Shown here in pieces: positions 10,346 to 51,288 of a stretch of 64,000 nucleotides of DNA. Source of the DNA: Thermoanaerobaculia bacterium (lineage in GTDB: Bacteria; Acidobacteriota; Thermoanaerobaculia; Multivoradales; J023); assembly GCA_030431255.1 (NCBI GenBank), contig JAUIJL010000019.1, forward strand, positions 124,001 to 188,000, read 5' to 3'. Below the pieces are notes generated by a model that saw only the letters and a list, made by a program, of their open reading frames with translations, ran no database searches and was not told the origin of the DNA. Position 1 is the stretch's first letter; every line of letters begins with the position of its first letter. Position numbers and translations under genes: made by a program.

Positions 10346-10611
10346 CGCACCTCGCTCAACAAAGCAGATCCCTTCGCTCCCGTCGCGGAGCGACCCGTCG
10401 GGACTCCCGAGCCGTTACGCTCTCCTGAGCCGTCCCGCTCTCCTGAGCCGTCCCGCTCTCCTGAGCCGTTACGCTCTCCTGAGCCGTCCCGCTCTCCTGA
10501 GCCGTCCCGCTCTCCTGAGCCGTTACGCTCTCCTGAGCCGTCCCGCTCTCCTGAGCCGTCCCGCCGCGATCCGGCCCGTACCGAGCGGTCTATTGCAGTC
10601 GGGGCCGTCAC
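10342..10611 (-). CDS. Candidate 89-aa (D/N)GSGER hexapeptide-repeat protein
   Basis: GTG at 10611 lies three bases after the dnaB stop, and the TGA at 10342-10344 overlaps the kinase ATG (ATGA). The product is mostly eight copies of DGSGER or NGSGER, charged, flexible and presumably disordered. Because the DNA repeat is 18 bp, the frame stays open whatever the copy number. It may be a real coupling or linker peptide, or just a repeat tract that keeps ribosomes moving into the kinase gene. No ribosome binding site is clear. No homolog is recognised. Confidence 0.4.
   Translation of the reverse strand: MTAPTAIDRSVRAGSRRDGSGERDGSGERNGSGERDGSGERDGSGERNGSGERDGSGERDGSGERNGSGVPTGRSATGAKGSALLSEVR
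10409..10563. repeat. 18-bp tandem repeat with 54-bp higher-order period
   Basis: Eight full units of GAGCCGTYMCGCTCTCCT plus a partial ninth lie head to tail. Two variants alternate as TTAC, TCCC, TCCC, giving a 54-bp super-unit repeated nearly three times. There are no spacers, so it is not a CRISPR array. Copy number is likely variable between strains. Confidence 0.95.
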
Positions 10612-10614
10612 GGA

Positions 10615-11976
10615 TCAGCGGTCGAAGCTCGGCAGGGCTTGGGGAGACTCTTCCCGATACAAACCCCGATCCGCCAGGAAGAGCAGCGGAATCTTATCCG
10701 TCGGACCGTGTCGGTGTTTCTTGATCGACAAATGGACCGCCCTCGCCGGCGGCGTGGACCCGCGCTCTTTGTCCTCGGTCAGAAACATCACCACGTCTCC
10801 TCCGAATTCCAGATCACCGCTTTCCTTCAACGAGTCCAGGGAGTCTCTCCCGCCTCCGGAGCCGTAACCTCCGCCGCTCCGGCTTTGGCTGCTCAGCACC
10901 AGGATCGGGGAACCCAAACGTTTGCCCAGGGCGATGAGCTCGCCGGTCAATGTGTCCACTTTACCGCGGACGTCGGAAATCGAGCGAAGCTCCGCTACGG
11001 TTTTCGCCATCAGCTGAACGTAGTCTACAACCAACAGACAGCGACGGCTGGAGCTCTGTTCCATGGATTTCAGCGCCAACGAGCGAAGCTTACCGACGGT
11101 CAGAGCCGGCGATCCGTCGACCAGGGTCAATCGGTTGAGCTGCGGCGCGAGCTCGGCGGCCGCCCGCTCGAGAAGGTCCGGATCCGCGGTACCGCGGAAA
11201 GCGTCGAATGAGCTGATGCCGGCGTGAGAGCAAACCGCTTTCAAGGTCAGGCTCTCACCGCTGTTCTCGAAGCTCACGTAGAGCACCGGGTGGGTCCTGG
11301 CCACATGAAGAGCGATCTGCAGAGCCAACGACGTCTTTCCCATCCCGGGAGCCCCCGCAAGGATGTGTAGGCCTTGATTCAATCCGGACAGCTTCTTGTC
11401 CAGCCGTGGAATGCCGGTGGGCAGACCGAAGACCGTGGTGCCCTCGTCGCGGCGCAGCTGCCAACGCTCCCGCGCCTGATCCAGGACCGAGGAGGTCAGC
11501 GCCGCGCCACTTTGATGCTCCGAGCCTCCGAAACCGCCCTCCAGATCCTCGAGACCGAATCGGGTCTCCCTCACGATCTCCGGGAGCTCACGCTCACCGG
11601 TCAGGGCCTGCTCGATGACCCGCCGCCCCAGCTCGGTCAGTCGGCGCCGGCGAGCCCGATCACGGACGATCCCGGCGTAGGTCGGTGCCCGGCCCAAGTC
11701 CGGTAGGTCGAGGTCCAAGCCGCTCAGGTAGGCCAAGCCGCCGATGCTCTCGAGCTCACCACTCTCTTCCAGGAGGGCCTGAACCGTCCGCAGATCGATC
11801 GGTGAGCGCCGGGAAGCGAGCTCTCGGTAGCAGGCGAAGATCCGTCGGTGGCGATCCGAATAAAACGTCGTCGGCTCCAGATCGAGCTCGTCGAGCAGCT
11901 CCGGCCGCAGCAACACCGCAGCGAGCACGGCGCGCTCGGCCTCGTTGGAATGGGGAAGGCCTCTGGTTTTGGTCAT
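10615..11976 (-). CDS. dnaB: DnaB-family replicative helicase
   Basis: This 453-aa protein has the DnaB layout: an N-terminal helical domain (SNEAERAVLAAVLLRPELLD), a linker, and a RecA-type hexameric ATPase domain. Walker A is GAPGMGKTS, Walker B is LLVVDYVQLM, and a later LVLSSQSRS stretch matches the DnaB Gln/Arg region. It unwinds DNA ahead of replication forks. The start ATG at 11976 has AAGGAG upstream. It borders an iteron-bearing origin-like block and faces away from it, as expected for a replicon-encoded helicase. Similar family proteins run about 450-480 aa, so this is near full length. It is the first gene of a coupled set including a Ser/Thr kinase. Confidence 0.9.
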   Translation of the reverse strand: MTKTRGLPHSNEAERAVLAAVLLRPELLDELDLEPTTFYSDRHRRIFACYRELASRRSPIDLRTVQALLEESGELESIGGLAYLSGLDLDLPDLGRAPTYAGIVRDRARRRRLTELGRRVIEQALTGERELPEIVRETRFGLEDLEGGFGGSEHQSGAALTSSVLDQARERWQLRRDEGTTVFGLPTGIPRLDKKLSGLNQGLHILAGAPGMGKTSLALQIALHVARTHPVLYVSFENSGESLTLKAVCSHAGISSFDAFRGTADPDLLERAAAELAPQLNRLTLVDGSPALTVGKLRSLALKSMEQSSSRRCLLVVDYVQLMAKTVAELRSISDVRGKVDTLTGELIALGKRLGSPILVLSSQSRSGGGYGSGGGRDSLDSLKESGDLEFGGDVVMFLTEDKERGSTPPARAVHLSIKKHRHGPTDKIPLLFLADRGLYREESPQALPSFDR

Positions 11977-12014
11977 CGGATCTCCTTAAGTCGGGCTGTC
12001 GGCTCAGGCTCGAA

Positions 12015-12055
12015 AGCACGGTCGCTCTGGGCTTGAGAGCACGGTCGCTCTGGGC
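12015..12055. repeat. Two exact 18-bp direct repeats upstream of dnaB
   Basis: AGCACGGTCGCTCTGGGC occurs at 12015-12032 and 12038-12055 with a 23-bp period. A decayed third copy may follow at about 12060-12080. They lie 40-80 bp upstream of the dnaB start and could be operators. Confidence 0.85.
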
Positions 12056-12060
12056 CCGAA

Positions 12061-12089
12061 AGCCCCGCGCGCTTTGGCGCGACGGGGCT
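12061..12089. promoter_or_regulatory. GC-rich hairpin in dnaB leader
   Basis: AGCCCCG (12061-12067) pairs with CGGGGCT (12083-12089), and an inner CGCGC/GCGCG stem extends it. It has no T-run in the dnaB direction, so it is more likely a regulatory or origin element than a terminator. Confidence 0.55.
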
Positions 12090-12090
12090 A

Positions 12091-12175
12091 GCTTAAGCCT
12101 TTTAAGGCCTTATCAGCAAAGGGACCGAAACTATAAGTTTCTATATTTCAATGCTTTACAAGGGATGTTCGATTC
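12091..12175. other. AT-rich candidate DNA-unwinding element
   Basis: This tract is clearly richer in A and T than its surroundings. It contains the perfect inverted repeat GAAACT-ATA-AGTTTC (12127-12141) and the run CTATATTTCAATGCTTTACA. It is next to the iteron array, the usual position for a melting site. The dnaB promoter may lie here too. Confidence 0.45.
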
Positions 12176-12225
12176 AGAAGATCACAGCATGGGTGAGATT
12201 TGGTCACACTGCCGGTGGCCTGGGC

Positions 12226-12911
12226 TCACCACCGGGGTGAGTCGGTCCCAGATGAGCCCGGGCTCACACCCGGACTGTGATCATTTGGGCTAAATGTCGA
12301 TCAATATTGGGATCTCCCCATCGAGGATCTCGCGAGGAATTCGATTCGGTCCCAGAAGACCCCGAGCAAGCACCCGGACTGTGATCAAAGCGGGAGCCGA
12401 TCGCCGTCGTAACAAAGATCTTTTTCTTGAGCGTCGTCCCATGGGGCTCGACACCTGGAGTGTGAGCAAATTCGGAGATCCGATACCTTCGACTCGGTCG
12501 AAAACGAGGACACCCAGAGTGTGAGCTTTGTGCGCCGTATCGCTGAACAACATATTCCTGCTCAGTGAGATAGGGGAATTATCTCCCTACACGGAGCGAG
12601 AGTCCCATATGGGACCGGCAACTCTACTGGGGTGTGAGCCGAAACGGTAGCTATCGGTCCCATATGGGACTAGGAGAACACCCGGCGTGTGAGTAAGAGC
12701 GCTCGATTCCGACCGACCGACCGGCAGAGCTGGTAGCGATGGCTCGGTCCCATGAAGGGACCGAGCGGCCACCTGGGCTGTGAGTAGAACCGCTCCGGCT
12801 CCTTGGTGAGCGGCTCTCACCCGGCGGTGCCGCGACGAGGCGGGACCGGAGAGGAACAGATATCGGCGGCGGAGAGGCTCGGGGACCGAGAGCTCACCCG
12901 GAGTGTGAGCA
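12226..12911. repeat. Iteron array, 18-bp consensus ACACCCGGAGTGTGAGCA
   Basis: Eight good copies start at 12266, 12370, 12451, 12510, 12623, 12678, 12769 and 12894. Degenerate copies lie near 12226 and 12817. All have the same orientation, spaced 55-125 bp. The right half GTGTGAG is best conserved, and some copies form an inverted half-site pair (CTCAC...GTGAG). A GGTCCCA-like box begins exactly 22 bp before the copies at 12266, 12370, 12623 and 12678, and 23 bp before 12769. Confidence 0.85.
12602..12763. repeat. GTCCC...GGGAC palindromes within the iteron array
   Basis: GTCCCATATGGGAC occurs at 12602-12615 and 12657-12670. CGGTCCC-ATGAA-GGGACCG lies at 12745-12763. Each directly precedes an iteron, so they may be the second half of a bipartite binding site. 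Confidence 0.8.
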
Positions 12912-12933
12912 CGATCGACGGAAAGGCGCCTGG

Positions 12934-12975
12934 GACCGGTCCCTCGATGGGACCGGTCCCATCGAGGGACCGGTC
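12934..12975. repeat. Perfect 42-bp palindrome (GACCGGTCCC-based)
   Basis: The 21 bases at 12934-12954 are the exact reverse complement of 12955-12975. Within it GGGACCGGTCCC recurs with a 17-bp period. It lies 75 bp beyond the 3' end of the putative initiator gene and 22 bp from the last iteron. It could form a cruciform, or terminate initiator transcription, though no T-run follows. Confidence 0.9.
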
Positions 12976-13008
12976 GGACGATTCTCGAGCGGAGGGGCTC
13001 TGCAGGCC

Positions 13009-13032
13009 GGTGGCCGAGCAGGTGGCCGAGCA
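13009..13032. repeat. Two 12-bp direct repeats GGTGGCCGAGCA
   Basis: Two exact adjacent copies lie just outside the 3' end of the putative initiator gene. Role unknown. Confidence 0.7.
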
Positions 13033-13049
13033 GGTGAGTGGGCCGCGAA

Positions 13050-14915
13050 TCAGGCGAGGCGGCGCCAGAGCTCGAGGATCTTGATCGCAACCTCGGTGGG
13101 CACCGCTCGTTTGCCCTGCTCGTAGCGTCCGACACTTTTGCGAGACAGATCGAGCTTCGAGGCCAGGTCTTCTTGGCGTAGGGAGTATTTGCGTCGGAAT
13201 AGACCGATCAGCAAGGGGTTCTCGACGATCTCTTGCTCGGTGGCGGGAATGCCGAGCGGCAGGACCCGCTGTACCTGTTTGCCTCCGCTGACCACGGGAG
13301 GACGTCGATCCGAGGGCAGCCGGGCTTTTTCACCCGCGCGCATGATCTGCCAAAGATCTCTGCTGAGCGTGACCCGCCGGGGCTCGTCGAGCCAGCTTTG
13401 GAAATAACCCCGTTGGCGTCGCGGCGGCTCGAAGTCGGGGGTGTCTTCGAGCAGACCGATTTCTCGGAGCCGTTGATGGGCTTCGATCATTCGGTCGACC
13501 GTGCGGTTGGGATTCCGCTCGTTGGGTGGCTCGCCGCAGAAGTCGAGGATCGATCTCGCGGTGGCCACCGGGGCCCGACCGCTCTTACCGGCGATGACAC
13601 CGTTGATCGCCCAATAGGTGCCGATTTTTTTGGTGAAGCCCTCCTGGCGAGGATTCAGCTCGAGGAGCGCTCGGGAGTATCGGCCGACCCAACGGAGCGA
13701 GTCGCGTTTCAGAAAATAGGCCAACGCTTGGCCGCAGCGGAAGGAGATGCCTTTGAGCTTGCGCCCGTTGCGCTCGTAGCTGACGTCGACGATGTCGAAA
13801 AGGCGATCGGGTTTCTCTTCACCGAAGCGGATGGTCCCGCCGTCGGCATAGTCTTTCCATTGCATGCTGAGGCGGAGATCCGCGAGCCGGAGCACCTCCT
13901 CGTAAAGCTCCTCCAAGAGCACGGATCGATGCCCTCTGCGTAGGCGCACCGCACGATAGTCGGCAATCTCCTCCAGCCGAATCTGGGCCAAGTCCCGGCT
14001 GGGATCTTGAAGCTCGGCAATGCGGCTCATCAGAATCAGAAAGACGTCGCCGGTCTCGACGGAGAGATCGGAAACCGCCATCATCAAGGCTCCGATCGCG
14101 GTTTCCTCCGGCACTTGCTCGAAGTCGAAATCGAAGAAAACCCTGACCAGCCCGTCCCGGGCCTCATGGGTGAAGAGGGGCCGCCCATAGGCGTCTTGGG
14201 TCCATCGGTGGGCCCGTCCGGCGGAGTAGATGGCCTCGAGGGTCGCTCGGAGCGGTGGATTGACAGGAATGTACATGGATGACGCGGCCGCCGCGCTCAT
14301 CAAACGCTCAGGGGTCAGAATGTGCTGCCCGGTGTCGGGCTCCGACTCCAGATTCCAAACCAAGCCGAGAGTCGGCTCGTCGTCTTGCTCGTCGAGCACC
14401 AGGGCCGAGAGGTGAAAACGGCTCTCGTCCCTGGGATCCAGCTTCAGCTCGTCGCCGCTTTCCATCAAGGGCCTGCGATCCGTTCCATAGCGCTCGAGGC
14501 CGTCGACGGAGGTGAGCTCGAGACGAATCTCCGTGATCTTCCCCCGCTCGAAGAACACCTGGCCCGCTTCGAAAAGCAGCCCGCCGTCGTCCACGGCTCG
14601 CCGTTTCGCTCGGTCGAGGATGCCCGCGTCCACCGCGGACTCCAGCAGATACCGCACCGCGCCCTGGAGGATTCGATCTTCGAGGGGGCCGGATCGGTGC
14701 CCTCGGTGGGCGATCTCCGCGCCGCCCTGCTCGCGCTCCAACAGGATGCCGCCCAGAATCGGGCTCGATCCCGGACCTTGATCGGCGTCGTAGCCTCGGA
14801 GCTCAGCCTGCTCGACGGTGCCCGGAACGTCGTCACCACGGCGGGAATCGTTTCCCGGAGCGCTCCCGACAGGTCGTTCGAGGCTGATGAATTTGGGTCG
14901 ACGGCGCAGGGACAC
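13050..14915 (-). CDS. Putative replication initiator with C-terminal XRE-type HTH
   Basis: This is a large (about 621-aa) DNA-binding protein, likely the replicon's initiator. I favour GTG at 14915, preceded by GAGGAG; an ATG at 14981 in the same frame gives 643 aa. The middle (ISFRCGQALAYFLKRDSLRW, then YSRALLELNPRQ) reads like the winged-helix region of plasmid Rep proteins, but I cannot name a Rep family. The last 60 residues form a clear XRE/HTH_3 domain (LFRRKYSLRQEDLASKLDLS followed by KSVGRYEQGKRAVP). Evidence for the role is the position: its stop faces the iteron block, and ParA and RHH partition genes lie upstream on the same strand. An XRE-type regulator unrelated to replication is the main alternative. 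Confidence 0.65.
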   Translation of the reverse strand: MSLRRRPKFISLERPVGSAPGNDSRRGDDVPGTVEQAELRGYDADQGPGSSPILGGILLEREQGGAEIAHRGHRSGPLEDRILQGAVRYLLESAVDAGILDRAKRRAVDDGGLLFEAGQVFFERGKITEIRLELTSVDGLERYGTDRRPLMESGDELKLDPRDESRFHLSALVLDEQDDEPTLGLVWNLESEPDTGQHILTPERLMSAAAASSMYIPVNPPLRATLEAIYSAGRAHRWTQDAYGRPLFTHEARDGLVRVFFDFDFEQVPEETAIGALMMAVSDLSVETGDVFLILMSRIAELQDPSRDLAQIRLEEIADYRAVRLRRGHRSVLLEELYEEVLRLADLRLSMQWKDYADGGTIRFGEEKPDRLFDIVDVSYERNGRKLKGISFRCGQALAYFLKRDSLRWVGRYSRALLELNPRQEGFTKKIGTYWAINGVIAGKSGRAPVATARSILDFCGEPPNERNPNRTVDRMIEAHQRLREIGLLEDTPDFEPPRRQRGYFQSWLDEPRRVTLSRDLWQIMRAGEKARLPSDRRPPVVSGGKQVQRVLPLGIPATEQEIVENPLLIGLFRRKYSLRQEDLASKLDLSRKSVGRYEQGKRAVPTEVAIKILELWRRLA

Positions 14916-15044
14916 GATGCTCCTCAGATCACGATTGGGGGCAGCGGTCCGGGCGCGGGGGCTGAGAACGTCCGACAGCATGGACCGCCGACGGGTGCCC
15001 CATTGTAGCGGAGCGCCACGAAATTCGAAGACTTAGGGTTTGAA

Positions 15045-15644
15045 TCAGAGGGGAAACTCGGGCCGGCTCTGCCGCTTAGGCAGCTCTTCTCCGGTTCGCT
15101 CGCGGTGGCGCTGCTCGACCTCGTTGACCATGGTCTGTAAGCCGCGGATTACCAGGTCGGAAAACGTCACCCCGGAGTAAGCGGCGAGAATATCCTCCAA
15201 TCGCTCCCGCAGATCGATCGGTACCCGAACGGACATGATGACGGTCGGGGCGGCTTCGCCGGGAACGGTTCGTGCGCGACGCTCGCCGGATTCGTGTTGG
15301 GTTTCGGTGGTTTCGATCATGGCAGCGGGGGCCTTTCGGGGATTCTTGGGTCGGTTCGCGGGGCGACGATTCGAAGCGCGATCGGAGCCGCGGTCGGTGG
15401 TCGTTTTCGTCGGAGACGAGGTCGCACGGCTGCTGCTCTTTTTTTTCTCGGCTTTACGATCGGCCGGCTCGGCGCCGGATTTTCGAGCCGGCTCGCTCGC
15501 GACCTTCTTCTCGGCAGCGGGTTCGACGTTCGGGGTTTCGGATACCGTTCGACCTTCGTTGTCGCCACTTTCGGGACGGTCGGCGGTGATGGCTCCTTCT
15601 CCACCATTTAAGAAGTCGTCTAGGTTGGCAGGGGGTCTGCGCAC
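15045..15644 (-). CDS. Ribbon-helix-helix partition partner (ParB/ParG-like)
   Basis: This 199-aa protein starts at GTG 15644, which has AGGAG upstream; the longer frame would overlap parA without a ribosome binding site. It begins MRRPPANLDDFLNGG, followed by a long disordered Lys/Ser/Pro/Glu-rich region. The C-terminus has a ribbon-helix-helix: a strand (TVIMSVRVPIDLRERLED) and helices (TFSDLVIRGLQTMVNEV). In type Ib partition systems a small RHH protein binds the centromere and stimulates ParA. The gene follows parA by 49 bp on the same strand, which fits. The RHH is at the C-terminus with an unusually long N-terminal tail. A CopG-like repressor is the alternative. Confidence 0.75.
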   Translation of the reverse strand: MRRPPANLDDFLNGGEGAITADRPESGDNEGRTVSETPNVEPAAEKKVASEPARKSGAEPADRKAEKKKSSSRATSSPTKTTTDRGSDRASNRRPANRPKNPRKAPAAMIETTETQHESGERRARTVPGEAAPTVIMSVRVPIDLRERLEDILAAYSGVTFSDLVIRGLQTMVNEVEQRHRERTGEELPKRQSRPEFPL

Positions 15645-15693
15645 GGCGATTCTCCTGGTTCGGGGCTGTGGATTCTCCGGATTTCGGCTCGAT

Positions 15694-16413
15694 TCAGCTC
15701 GGTAGCTCGAGACCGAGCACGTTCTCGGCCACGTCACGGAAGGCGGCGATCATCTCATCGATCGCCTTCTGATCCCTGGCCCGACCGGTCTGCTCGAGCA
15801 CACTGAGCCCGACCTCCGCTCCCCTTCGGAAAGCCTTGCGGGAGTGAATGACCCTATCGATGGCTTTGAAGCCGTCCTCGGCCAAGAACTCGCGAGCCTC
15901 CTTCGCTTCCTTCACCCCACCGGTCACACCGACCTGATTGAGCAGCACCCACGAGGGCAGGTCACCGTCGCTCACTCGAAATCCGTTGGCCTGCTCGATC
16001 AGCTCCTGCATGCGTCCGAATTCCCACATTTCAAAAGCCGACACATTGGCGGGCATGAGCAGGGCATCGGCGACGACCAGAAGACCCCGGAGCGCCACGG
16101 AATCGAAGCCACCGGCGTCGGCGACGATCAGGTCGTAGTCCTCCCCCACTTCCAAAAGATCCCGATGTACTCCTTTGCCTTCCATGCCCACGCAGCGAAT
16201 CGACAGCAAATCTCTACCCGAATCCTGAAGCTGGCGTCTGACGCCCGCCCATTTGCTGGAGGAACGCTGTACCGGGTCGAGATCGGCGAGAAGAACTTTC
16301 AAATCGAGGCTGGCGGCGACGACCGCAAAATTTACTGCGATGGTGCTCTTTCCGACCCCGCCTTTGGTGTGTCCGACGCCGAGAATTTTGGAAAGACGCT
16401 TTTTCTTAGACAT
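15694..16413 (-). CDS. parA: ParA-family partition ATPase
   Basis: This 239-aa protein has a deviant Walker A motif HTKGGVGKST (residues 15-24) with the signature Lys K17, a second motif VLLADLDPVQRSSSKW and a Walker B-like DLIVADAGG. This is the MinD/ParA fold that positions DNA cargo by ATP-driven binding to the nucleoid. The short length, without an N-terminal HTH, matches type Ib plasmid ParA proteins, which pair with RHH partners. The start ATG at 16413 has CGGAG upstream. A 16-bp inverted repeat (16434-16449) just upstream is a plausible operator. It shares its strand with the RHH gene and the putative initiator, and the three may form one operon. Confidence 0.9.
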   Translation of the reverse strand: MSKKKRLSKILGVGHTKGGVGKSTIAVNFAVVAASLDLKVLLADLDPVQRSSSKWAGVRRQLQDSGRDLLSIRCVGMEGKGVHRDLLEVGEDYDLIVADAGGFDSVALRGLLVVADALLMPANVSAFEMWEFGRMQELIEQANGFRVSDGDLPSWVLLNQVGVTGGVKEAKEAREFLAEDGFKAIDRVIHSRKAFRRGAEVGLSVLEQTGRARDQKAIDEMIAAFRDVAENVLGLELPS

Positions 16414-16777
16414 CGATAACTCCGTGAGAGCCTATCCACCTTAGTGGATGGGAAAACGTGCATTTGTGAAATACGAAACGCATGCGAGCCAATACGGATC
16501 CTTACATAAAAGTTGAATGCGGGCCGTTCGGAAAACGAGTTTACTGGAAAGAAAAGAAGCAAGTCCAGAAGTAACCACATGGAGCTTCCCTTAAAAGGTA
16601 CATACAGAAACGATACAAGCAAATGAGCGGGCACGCCAATTACAAACGCAGAAGGCAAAGTAGAAAACTGGCTGAAAGAGTACTGTGCAACGCAGATCAG
16701 CGGAGGGTCGGCAAAGTGTCTTGTATTACAGTCATACGTATTGCAATACGTAATATGTATTACACACTCGTAAAAGA
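16414..16777 (-). promoter_or_regulatory. AT-rich leader of the par genes
   Basis: This 364-bp stretch is visibly more AT-rich than its surroundings. Close to parA lies the inverted repeat ATCCAC-CTTA-GTGGAT (16434-16449). At the far end lies the repeat cluster 16722-16764, listed separately. A 108-codon minus-strand ORF crosses it but overlaps parA and has no family features. No promoter boxes could be assigned confidently. Confidence 0.6.
16722..16764. promoter_or_regulatory. Candidate centromere (parS) or operator
   Basis: A perfect 18-bp palindrome TACGTATTGCAATACGTA (16735-16752) is flanked by two copies of TGTATTACA (16722-16730 and 16756-16764). All four half-sites share a YGTATTRC core. 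Such clustered half-sites suit an RHH protein. It lies about 310 bp upstream of parA and just beyond the 3' end of the giant kinase gene. Confidence 0.55.
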
Positions 16778-22445: not shown

Positions 22446-23117
22446 ATGGCCGAAATCGGAGCCAATCCCCTTGAAGGCTCGGAAACCGCATTGCGTTTCG
22501 AATATTTCGATCGCTATCTGGCCCATTGGCGCGATCTCGAGGTGCTCGACGTGGGCTGTGGCCAAGGCTCCGTCAGCACCTTCTTATCGGGCCGGGGTTG
22601 CCATGTTTTCGGTGTGGATCCGGACCCCGAGAACGTGAAGCTGGCCGCCGAACGCGCGATCCGTGAGGGCCGGGGTATCGACTATCGGGTGGGCACCGCG
22701 GAGCGATTGCCCTATGAGGATCACCAATTCGATGTGGTCATCTGTCTCGATGTGCTGGAGCACGCTTCGAACGTGTCTCAGGCGATCGGTGAGATGTCGC
22801 GGGTCCTTCAACCCGGTGGTTACTTTCTTTTCGACTCGATCAACCGCACCTGGACCTCGAGGGTCGTCTCCGTGTGGCTGACGGAGAGCTTGCTCAGACG
22901 CCGGCAGTCGAAGAGAGCTCGTGATTGGCGAAAGTTCATCCGACCCACCGAGCTCGAGAAGCATCTGCGGGCTCACGGCTTTTTGGATATCTCCATGGCC
23001 GGCTTGACCATCAGGGGCCGAGGCCAAGGGAAGGCGATGCGGTCGGAGGTGGGAAGCGATATGCGCATGAGCTACCTCGGGATCGGCCGGACCCCTCCGG
23101 GCCCACCCGCGGTGTGA
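22446..23117 (+). CDS. SAM-dependent methyltransferase (UbiG-like, class I)
   Basis: This 223-aa protein has the class I Rossmann pattern. Motif I is VLDVGCGQG (residues 33-41), the acidic end of strand 2 is VFGVDPDPENVKLA, and FDVVICLDVLEHASN is the motif-IV region with the VLEH signature of UbiG-type enzymes. LQPGGYFLFDSINRT follows. UbiG itself O-methylates quinone precursors, and the FLFDSINRTW segment matches that group. The rest of a quinone pathway is not present here, so the true substrate is open. AGGAGG precedes the ATG by 10 bp. It stands alone, convergent with the gene at 23174. Confidence 0.8.
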   Translation: MAEIGANPLEGSETALRFEYFDRYLAHWRDLEVLDVGCGQGSVSTFLSGRGCHVFGVDPDPENVKLAAERAIREGRGIDYRVGTAERLPYEDHQFDVVICLDVLEHASNVSQAIGEMSRVLQPGGYFLFDSINRTWTSRVVSVWLTESLLRRRQSKRARDWRKFIRPTELEKHLRAHGFLDISMAGLTIRGRGQGKAMRSEVGSDMRMSYLGIGRTPPGPPAV

Positions 23118-50280: not shown

Positions 50281-51288
50281 ATGACTCTGTCGACAACTCC
50301 ATCCCATAGCCCGCCCCAGGACGCCCCGTGGCCGATAAGCATTGAAAGGTTTCTGAACGGAGGCGGACGTTTTTCAGCCGCGACGATTCAAACCTATCGT
50401 CCGGCTCTTCGTCGATTTGCCGACGTCGCCATCGAACGAGGTTATGACAAACCCGCGGCCGTGGATGCGCATTTGTTGGAGCTCTACGGCCAAGCGTTGC
50501 GGGAGTGGAACCCAGCGGCAAGGACCCTGAGCTTGCACGTCGTCTGTGTTCGACGATTCATCGGCTGGCTGCAAGCTCACGGTGCTGAAGGCCTGCCGCA
50601 GGTCTGGCAGATCAAAGACATCCTGCGTTTCGAGGCGGCGCCCAAGCCGTCCATGACCGCCACCGCCCGTCCCGACCTCAAACGTCTGCTGGTCGCCCGC
50701 GACGCCTCGCCGAGAGACCGGGCGATTTGGGCCCTAGCCGCCTTCGCTGGTTTGAAAGCCACGGAGATCGCCCGCCTCAAGCTGGAATCGTTCCGACACG
50801 ACGGAACGGGATGGACCGTCGAGGTGGTGCGCAGCTCTCGCAAGGTGCCCCGCAGCGTTCCGCTGGTGGACGAGGTCAGCCGCGCCCTCACCGCCTACCT
50901 GCGGGATACCGGTCGGCGGCTCGGGCGATCCAAAGGTTTCGTCTTCGAGGCGGAAGATCCATACGCGGAAAAACGGGCCACCCAAGGCCTTTCCCGCCAA
51001 ACCGTCTACAACGTCATCCGCAAAACCGCCGATGCCCTCGGCATCGAAAGCTGCAACCCCCGCCAGCTGCGCAACGCCTTCGGCGTGCTCTTCCTGCGCG
51101 CCGGCGGCGAGCTGTCCCAGCTCCAGGAGCTCCTGGGCCACGAATCCGCCGCCGCCACCTCCGTCTACCTCCAAGCCGAGCAACGATCCGTTGCCCGAGA
51201 GACCCTCGAGCGACAGATCGCCCTGGTGGAAAGCACCGACGAAACCTTGATGAAAGCGGGGGAACGGGAGAAAGGCCTGCGGGAATAG
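50281..51288 (+). CDS. Tyrosine recombinase/integrase with altered catalytic residues
   Basis: ATG at 50281 gives 335 aa; an ATG at 50233 with AGGA upstream is a possible alternative, and the longer frame overlaps the kinase gene on the other strand. A core-binding (SAM-like) domain spans about residues 17-110 (SIERFLNGGGRFSAATIQTY). The catalytic domain has R264 (NPRQLRNAF), H287 (LLGHESAAAT) and nucleophile Y296 (SVYLQ). The first catalytic Arg is Lys at K159 (FAGLKATEIARL), where GLR is expected, and the His of HxLR is Arg (R261). So only part of the R-K-H-R-H/W-Y set is conserved. It may be inactive or may have become a DNA-binding or accessory recombinase. Confidence 0.85.
   Translation: MTLSTTPSHSPPQDAPWPISIERFLNGGGRFSAATIQTYRPALRRFADVAIERGYDKPAAVDAHLLELYGQALREWNPAARTLSLHVVCVRRFIGWLQAHGAEGLPQVWQIKDILRFEAAPKPSMTATARPDLKRLLVARDASPRDRAIWALAAFAGLKATEIARLKLESFRHDGTGWTVEVVRSSRKVPRSVPLVDEVSRALTAYLRDTGRRLGRSKGFVFEAEDPYAEKRATQGLSRQTVYNVIRKTADALGIESCNPRQLRNAFGVLFLRAGGELSQLQELLGHESAAATSVYLQAEQRSVARETLERQIALVESTDETLMKAGEREKGLRE

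Follow-up and report, generated by a model that had tools for sequence, protein, structure and literature searches.

A perfect 42-bp palindrome beside an iteron-like origin in a Thermoanaerobaculia bacterium is a plausible control site for the replicon's own initiator

A perfect 42-bp palindrome was found next to an apparent iteron-type replication origin in a Thermoanaerobaculia bacterium. Our preferred reading, which is plausible and was derived from the sequence, is that the palindrome is a handcuffing or control site. The replicon's own initiator (gene 13050-14981) would bind it as a regulatory site that limits replication, and we give this close to, though slightly below, an even chance of being correct. 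All positions refer to the window, the whole stretch of 64,000 nucleotides that was analysed, unless the prefix C44 marks a position in the 198,281-bp contig that holds it. The features on which the argument is built are listed in Table 1.

Table 1. Features of the replication region, in window coordinates.
Feature	Position	Strand	Remarks
DnaB helicase	10615..11976	-	
Candidate unwinding element, 65% AT	12120..12179	.	most AT-rich of the tabulated 60-bp stretches
Eight iteron-like boxes CACCCGGNNTGTGAG	12267..12909	all +	starts 12267, 12371, 12452, 12511, 12624, 12679, 12770, 12895
Dyad GTCCCATATGGGAC	12602..12615	.	5' of TGTGAG box
Dyad GTCCCATATGGGAC	12657..12670	.	5' of TGTGAG box
Dyad GGTCCCATGAAGGGACC	12746..12762	.	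5' of TGTGAG box
17-bp tandem unit, 2.6 copies	12931..12975	.	contains the palindrome; GGGACCGGTC at 12932, 12949, 12966
Perfect 42-bp palindrome	12934..12975	.	own reverse complement across all 42 bp
Dyad 1, GGTCCC-N5-GGGACC	12938..12954	-	reads GGTCCCATCGAGGGACC on the - strand
Dyad 2, GGTCCCATCGAGGGACC	12955..12971	+	head-to-head with dyad 1
Initiator-like protein, 643 aa	13050..14981	-	
C-terminal Cro/C1-type HTH of initiator, residues 596-637	13071..13196	-	HTH_3, E 6.7e-8
Small protein, candidate ParB partner	15045..15737	-	weak C-terminal ribbon-helix-helix (RHH) match below family cutoff
ParA partition ATPase	15694..16413	-	

The initial annotation had described the site as a perfect palindrome that was very unlikely to have arisen by chance, and both points were confirmed. 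The sequence equals its own reverse complement and the mirror symmetry stops at 12934 and 12975, where the first flanking pair is mismatched and 4 of the next 12 flanking pairs match. With the base composition of C44, 1.3e-7 palindromes of 42 bp are expected by chance in the contig. It is the sole perfect palindrome longer than 20 bp in the readable part of C44 (198,281 bp minus 10,040 masked bases), and the longest other perfect palindrome in 356,774 bp of loci, including other stretches of C44, is 22 bp. All matches of the palindrome to Rfam, on both strands, were far below the family threshold. Cruciform extrusion seems unlikely because the centre of the palindrome is GC-rich.

The palindrome is composed of two head-to-head GGTCCC-N5-GGGACC dyads with the common junction GGGACCGGTCCC. 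This junction had previously been taken for the unit of the origin boxes, which is wrong: the boxes have half-sites in the form GGTCCC-N4/5-GGGACC, and GGGACCGGTCCC is where the two dyads abut. It occurs at two places only in the 10.19-Mb genome, 12932-12943 and 12949-12960, which overlap or lie within the palindrome. The junction is a palindrome in its own right, so that the tandem by itself accounts for most of the 42-bp symmetry. Given the three-copy 17-bp GGGACCGGTC tandem, what is left to explain is that the 5-bp spacers, TCGAT and ATCGA, are reverse complements of each other, the chance of which is about 1.3e-3.

The earlier proposal that the palindrome adjoins an origin was supported by the iteron-like boxes, the initiator-like gene, DnaB, ParA and the GC skew. 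The origin region (11977-13049) sits between the initiator-like gene and the DnaB gene, and the genes for ParA and the protein with the weak RHH match are ahead of the initiator gene in its direction of transcription. A second DnaB gene of the genome is on another contig (C15). Cumulative GC skew along C44 is lowest at C44:135770, which is window position 11770, inside dnaB and 1.2 kb from the palindrome. No tRNA genes were found on C44 and no overlap was found between its ends. We infer that C44 is a plasmid.

Three other repeats were observed on this replicon. Nine 18-bp tandem units (CTCCTGAGCCGTCCCGCT, with a 54-bp higher order) occupy 10404-10564, between the DnaB stop and a kinase gene, and could be a second repeat locus. 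Upstream of parA, at 16722-16764, an 18-bp palindrome, TACGTATTGCAATACGTA, lies between two TGTATTACA direct repeats and is a candidate partition site or operator. Outside the window, C44:104619-104655 is a hairpin with 17-bp arms and a 3-nt loop, without a T-run; it is flanked by two small Cys-rich LDDVSGG-type precursor-like genes, and an ORF near it presumably resembles DUF692.

Two characteristics of an iteron-type origin were found beside the palindrome. Eight putative iterons, recognized by their sequence and all in direct orientation on the + strand, lie beside the initiator-like gene, and an AT-rich stretch lies beside these boxes (65% AT, compared to 40% over the whole region). The AT-rich stretch is at the opposite end of the box array from the palindrome. 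The spacing of the boxes is irregular, 55-125 bp. They are the best eight matches in C44 (scores 16.9-22.6) to a motif built from the same eight, and the ninth-best match, at 23104, scores 16.6, without clear separation from the weakest box at 16.9. One 9-mer is present four times in the intergenic region whether the palindrome is included or excluded, a number that 0 of 200 simulations reached. In a scan for DnaA boxes, exact TTATNCACA was absent and one single-mismatch site was found at 12688, overlapping an iteron box.

The half-sites of the palindrome are concentrated in the same region. GTCCC/GGGAC occurs 17 times in the 1,073-bp intergenic region, including 5 times inside the palindrome tandem, compared to 2.0 expected by length. 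A full GTCCC-N4/5-GGGAC dyad is found 5' of only three of the eight CACCCGGNNTGTGAG boxes, and by hand count GGGAC is 22 bp ahead of TGTGA at four of the eight. All five GTCCC-N3-6-GGGAC dyads of C44 fall within 12602-12970. Since five was also the maximum among 30 Markov simulations (mean 1.4), the weight of this observation rests on the clustering of the dyads and not on their number. Every full dyad outside the palindrome is followed by a TGTGAG box; the two within it are not. They are also two of the three GGTCCC-N3-6-GGGACC dyads in C44 with full six-base arms.

The initiator-like protein had no family matches outside its C-terminal HTH in Pfam, PHROGs or NCBIfam, and no known winged-helix Rep family was recognized in these libraries, where its matches were confined to the HTH_3-type region. 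Outside the HTH, a structure model built from the single sequence was of poor quality. No close relatives were found in GTDB contigs, viral contigs or phages. Among 59 related genomes, the one match was the genome itself. A phylum sample of 396 gave two, its own genome and a 46-residue HTH match, and a search of the class at E 0.01 gave 4 of 148, namely its own genome, two C-terminal-HTH matches and one short match (residues 217-292). The first search of plasmids returned a single HTH-only match. A second match in the own genome, on contig C1, was taken as chance; it is inside an apparent sigma-factor gene, which we named from its sequence. The literature searched, judged on titles and the starts of abstracts, contained no description of this initiator family or of such a palindrome.

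The origin intergenic DNA matched itself and one 25-bp sequence among the 59 genomes, and gave four short matches (E up to 1) among plasmids. With ParA, 4 of 72 genomes matched at E 1e-15, its own and three others. Two of the matching contigs, from the same family, had no initiator-like ORF and no palindrome longer than 16 bp, and in the examined part of the third (4.2 kb) the palindromes reached 14 bp at most. A DnaB match with 49% identity in another genome (G108) is on an 8.5-kb contig with no palindrome longer than 12 bp and no initiator-like ORF. When the dyad-array pattern was used as the query, there was no match in viral contigs, and three stretches were found in GTDB contigs (L059, L060 and L061), all from Actinobacteria. 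In L059 and L061, the GGTCCC/GGGACC arrangement coincides with an ORF end or follows closely after one, and no initiator-like ORF was seen among the ORFs of these two loci. L059, from Actinobacteria bacterium OV450, has at 327-360 a 34-bp palindrome with this arrangement at the ORF end. The three actinobacterial stretches are taken as unrelated.

More distant relatives of the initiator were reached through DnaB, whose closest plasmid match is on pPfer1 of Paludibaculum fermentans, another member of the Acidobacteriota. An ORF near that match is 25% identical to the initiator over 241 aa (E 3e-10, for a comparison with one sequence only and uncorrected for composition). This ORF is in two frames and spans the record start (L052:8771-10291 and L051:9-353), and the PLSDB gene table does not list its longer piece. 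Nearby are genes for DnaB, toprim and ParA. With the longer piece as the query, 25 other plasmids were matched, of which 23 carry Bacillaceae names. The Bacillaceae relatives are 551-619 aa long; a C-terminal HTH model was above cutoff in five of the six that were scanned, and no Pfam model was above cutoff outside the HTH in these six or in pPfer1. In a single hhalign comparison, the initiator matched the family profile with a probability of 93.9 and E 1.5e-7 over 244 columns, which include the HTH. Without the HTH, the initiator core scored 9.1 bits against the family, the best of a set of 5,002 (the core, its reverse and 5,000 shuffles), with E 0.12 for the set. These sequence comparisons suggest that the initiator is likely related, distantly, to the pPfer1 and Bacillaceae proteins.

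The origin-side regions of 14 of the 25 matched plasmids, all 14 from Bacillaceae, and of pPfer1 were sampled. A primase gene adjoins the relative in 8 of the 14 Bacillaceae loci. In 12 of the 15 regions, one 9-mer occurs 4-9 times, which 0 of 200 simulations reached for each. The regions of Metabacillus pB218, C. kochii and pPfer1 have no clear repeated 9-mer array, their top 9-mers having 1, 3 and 2 copies, counts that were attained in 200, 3 and 70 of 200 simulations, respectively. In five regions, no more than 3 of 60 simulations gave an inverted repeat as long as the longest one observed; in the other ten, at least 9 of 60 did so and the repeat was unremarkable. For three of the five (C. 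kochii, P. frigoritolerans CK6 and L. capsici), the longest inverted repeat consists of two inverted copies of the iteron word TGGTGCA, located 73-148 bp ahead of the gene. Iteron words are found in both orientations in these three, and the inverted pairs may therefore be incidental. None of the 15 regions contains a perfect 42-bp palindrome. The plasmid of Bacillus arachidis has an inverted repeat with 20-bp arms and a 6-nt loop (L069:3619-3664) amid iteron copies upstream of its initiator-like gene. The position of the GC-skew minimum was compared with that of the gene in three relatives: the two positions agree in pPfer1, in P. psychrosaccharolyticus only once the skew is detrended (the raw minimum being elsewhere), and not in P. 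asahii KF4.

Three known systems were compared with this origin. The Bacillaceae and pPfer1 HTH proteins, themselves uncharacterised, share a C-terminal HTH (five of six Bacillaceae proteins scanned) and repeat arrays (12 of 15 regions) with it, but the sequence similarity is only distant and their iteron words are unlike those here. The F plasmid oriS/repE region is similar in having direct repeats beside the initiator gene, inverted copies of a related sequence and ParA nearby. However, the boxes here are two-part and irregularly spaced, 55-125 bp apart, and the initiator does not match a Rep family model. The inverted repeats to which RepE dimers bind in F separate the repE promoter from the reading frame (PMC13028717), whereas the palindrome here is beyond the end of the initiator gene. 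In Vibrio cholerae Chr2, RctB binds 12-mers that promote and 39-mers that inhibit replication (PMC5395669). The likeness is that two kinds of sites are in one origin and one of them may inhibit; it is a functional comparison only. The site sequences differ.

The preferred reading starts from the observation that the palindrome carries the dyad half of an iteron without the second element, CACCCGGNNTGTGAG, and that a form of this dyad recurs 5' of boxes. Cro/C1-type domains bind dyads as dimers, which makes the C-terminal HTH the natural reader of GGTCCC-N5-GGGACC. We infer that initiator dimers read the dyad, probably through this domain. Full iterons, with both the dyad and the TGTGAG box, would assemble an initiation complex that would melt the AT-rich stretch at 12120-12179 and take in the replicon's DnaB. 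The dyad-only palindrome would hold two to three initiator dimers that are unable to start replication and that do not have the second contact offered by a full iteron. They could restrain replication by pairing with initiator-bound iterons, through handcuffing or looping, or by titrating the initiator. The palindrome itself probably arose by an inverted duplication of one dyad box inside the 17-bp tandem. The clustered half-sites and dyads, the origin-like setting, and the repeat arrays and inverted iteron pairs of the distant relatives speak for this reading. Several points stand against a control site. The palindrome follows the initiator stop codon by about 75 bp and is not at the gene start, where the Rep-dimer operators of iteron plasmids are usually found, and this position argues against the palindrome repressing rep. 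Also, once the HTH is left out, the initiator is only weakly linked to its family (9.1 bits, E 0.12). The ORF-end position of the half-site arrangement in L059 and L061, the unremarkable inverted repeats of ten of the 15 relative regions, the two orientations of the iteron words in the relatives checked, the number of dyads on C44, the full dyad at only three of eight boxes, the divided GC-skew result and the poor structure model count against it as well. The restraining role is suggested by analogy with RepE of F (PMC13028717) and RctB of V. cholerae Chr2 (PMC5395669).

The same dyads could be read as promoting replication. Initiator dimers might load the palindrome first with high affinity, with the complex then spreading to the weaker iterons, and the location of two of the three full six-base-arm dyads of C44 at one end of the box array is consistent with such a nucleation site. 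However, the palindrome does not have the TGTGAG box that all eight iterons have and is at the end of the array far from the AT-rich stretch, and we consider nucleation unlikely. Another possible explanation involves RNA. Transcription of the initiator gene is directed toward the origin, and in the transcript the palindrome, which follows the stop codon by about 75 bp on the transcribed strand, would fold as a very stable hairpin (-51.3 kcal/mol, z -5.8) that might act as a transcriptional insulator, a terminator or a 3'-end protector. The GGTCCC/GGGACC arrangement at or just past ORF ends in L059 and L061 would fit this role. On the other hand, the palindrome hairpin is without the T-run of an intrinsic terminator on both strands (at most 2 T in 8), and a terminator scan found none. 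The absence of a T-run weighs moderately, as only 2 of 21 other C44 hairpins with arms of at least 9 have at least 5 T in 8. The hairpin is also an automatic consequence of the dyads, which recur among the boxes away from gene ends, and a role in the transcript is, in our judgement, about as unlikely as nucleation.

A protein other than the initiator might read the dyads, either the RHH protein, with the dyads as its operator or centromere, or a Cro/C1-type regulator of the host. ParA and the protein with the weak RHH match are encoded nearby, but the repeat-flanked palindrome directly upstream of parA is a better partition candidate and the dyads interleave with the iteron boxes, which leaves this explanation very unlikely. 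An artefact of assembly, or a neutral remnant of tandem duplication, would account for a core that is a short tandem of a self-complementary unit, from which most of the palindrome is automatic. This is highly improbable, as the flanks are not mirrored, unlike those of fold-back chimeras, 42 bp is below common read length and the spacers are complementary as well. Recombination is the most improbable of these explanations. Protelomerase sites are long palindromes, and C44 encodes one match each to the serine recombinases (PF00239; C44:14105-14524) and the tyrosine recombinases (PF00589; window 50680-51180), so that a target for multimer resolution or telomere resolution was considered. These matches are about 122 kb (about 76 kb if the contig is circular) and 38 kb from the palindrome along C44, a search of the own genome with the telomere-resolvase family PF16684 found nothing, and the palindrome is internal to the contig with parts that recur in iterons. 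The suggestion in the initial annotation that the site is a dimer-resolution target thus found no support, there being no adjacent recombinase. Its suggestion of a replication termination site was not supported either, because the palindrome is at the GC-skew minimum.

If the control-site reading is true, the palindrome naturally separates the dyad half of the iteron from the other half, and one could test directly what each half contributes to starting replication and to restraining it. A broader proposal, which we regard as somewhat unlikely, is that large Bacillaceae plasmids, the Acidobacteriota plasmid pPfer1 and this replicon share an undescribed class of plasmid initiators, which would read two-part iterons with the C-terminal Cro/C1-type domain on the dyad and the core on the second box. 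The off-switch of such a replicon would be an inverted duplication of the dyad alone, which here would have grown to a perfect 42-bp palindrome. The finding would also point to a family of initiators on large plasmids, given that outside the HTH the protein here matches no model in the three libraries, and six Bacillaceae relatives and pPfer1 none in Pfam above cutoff.
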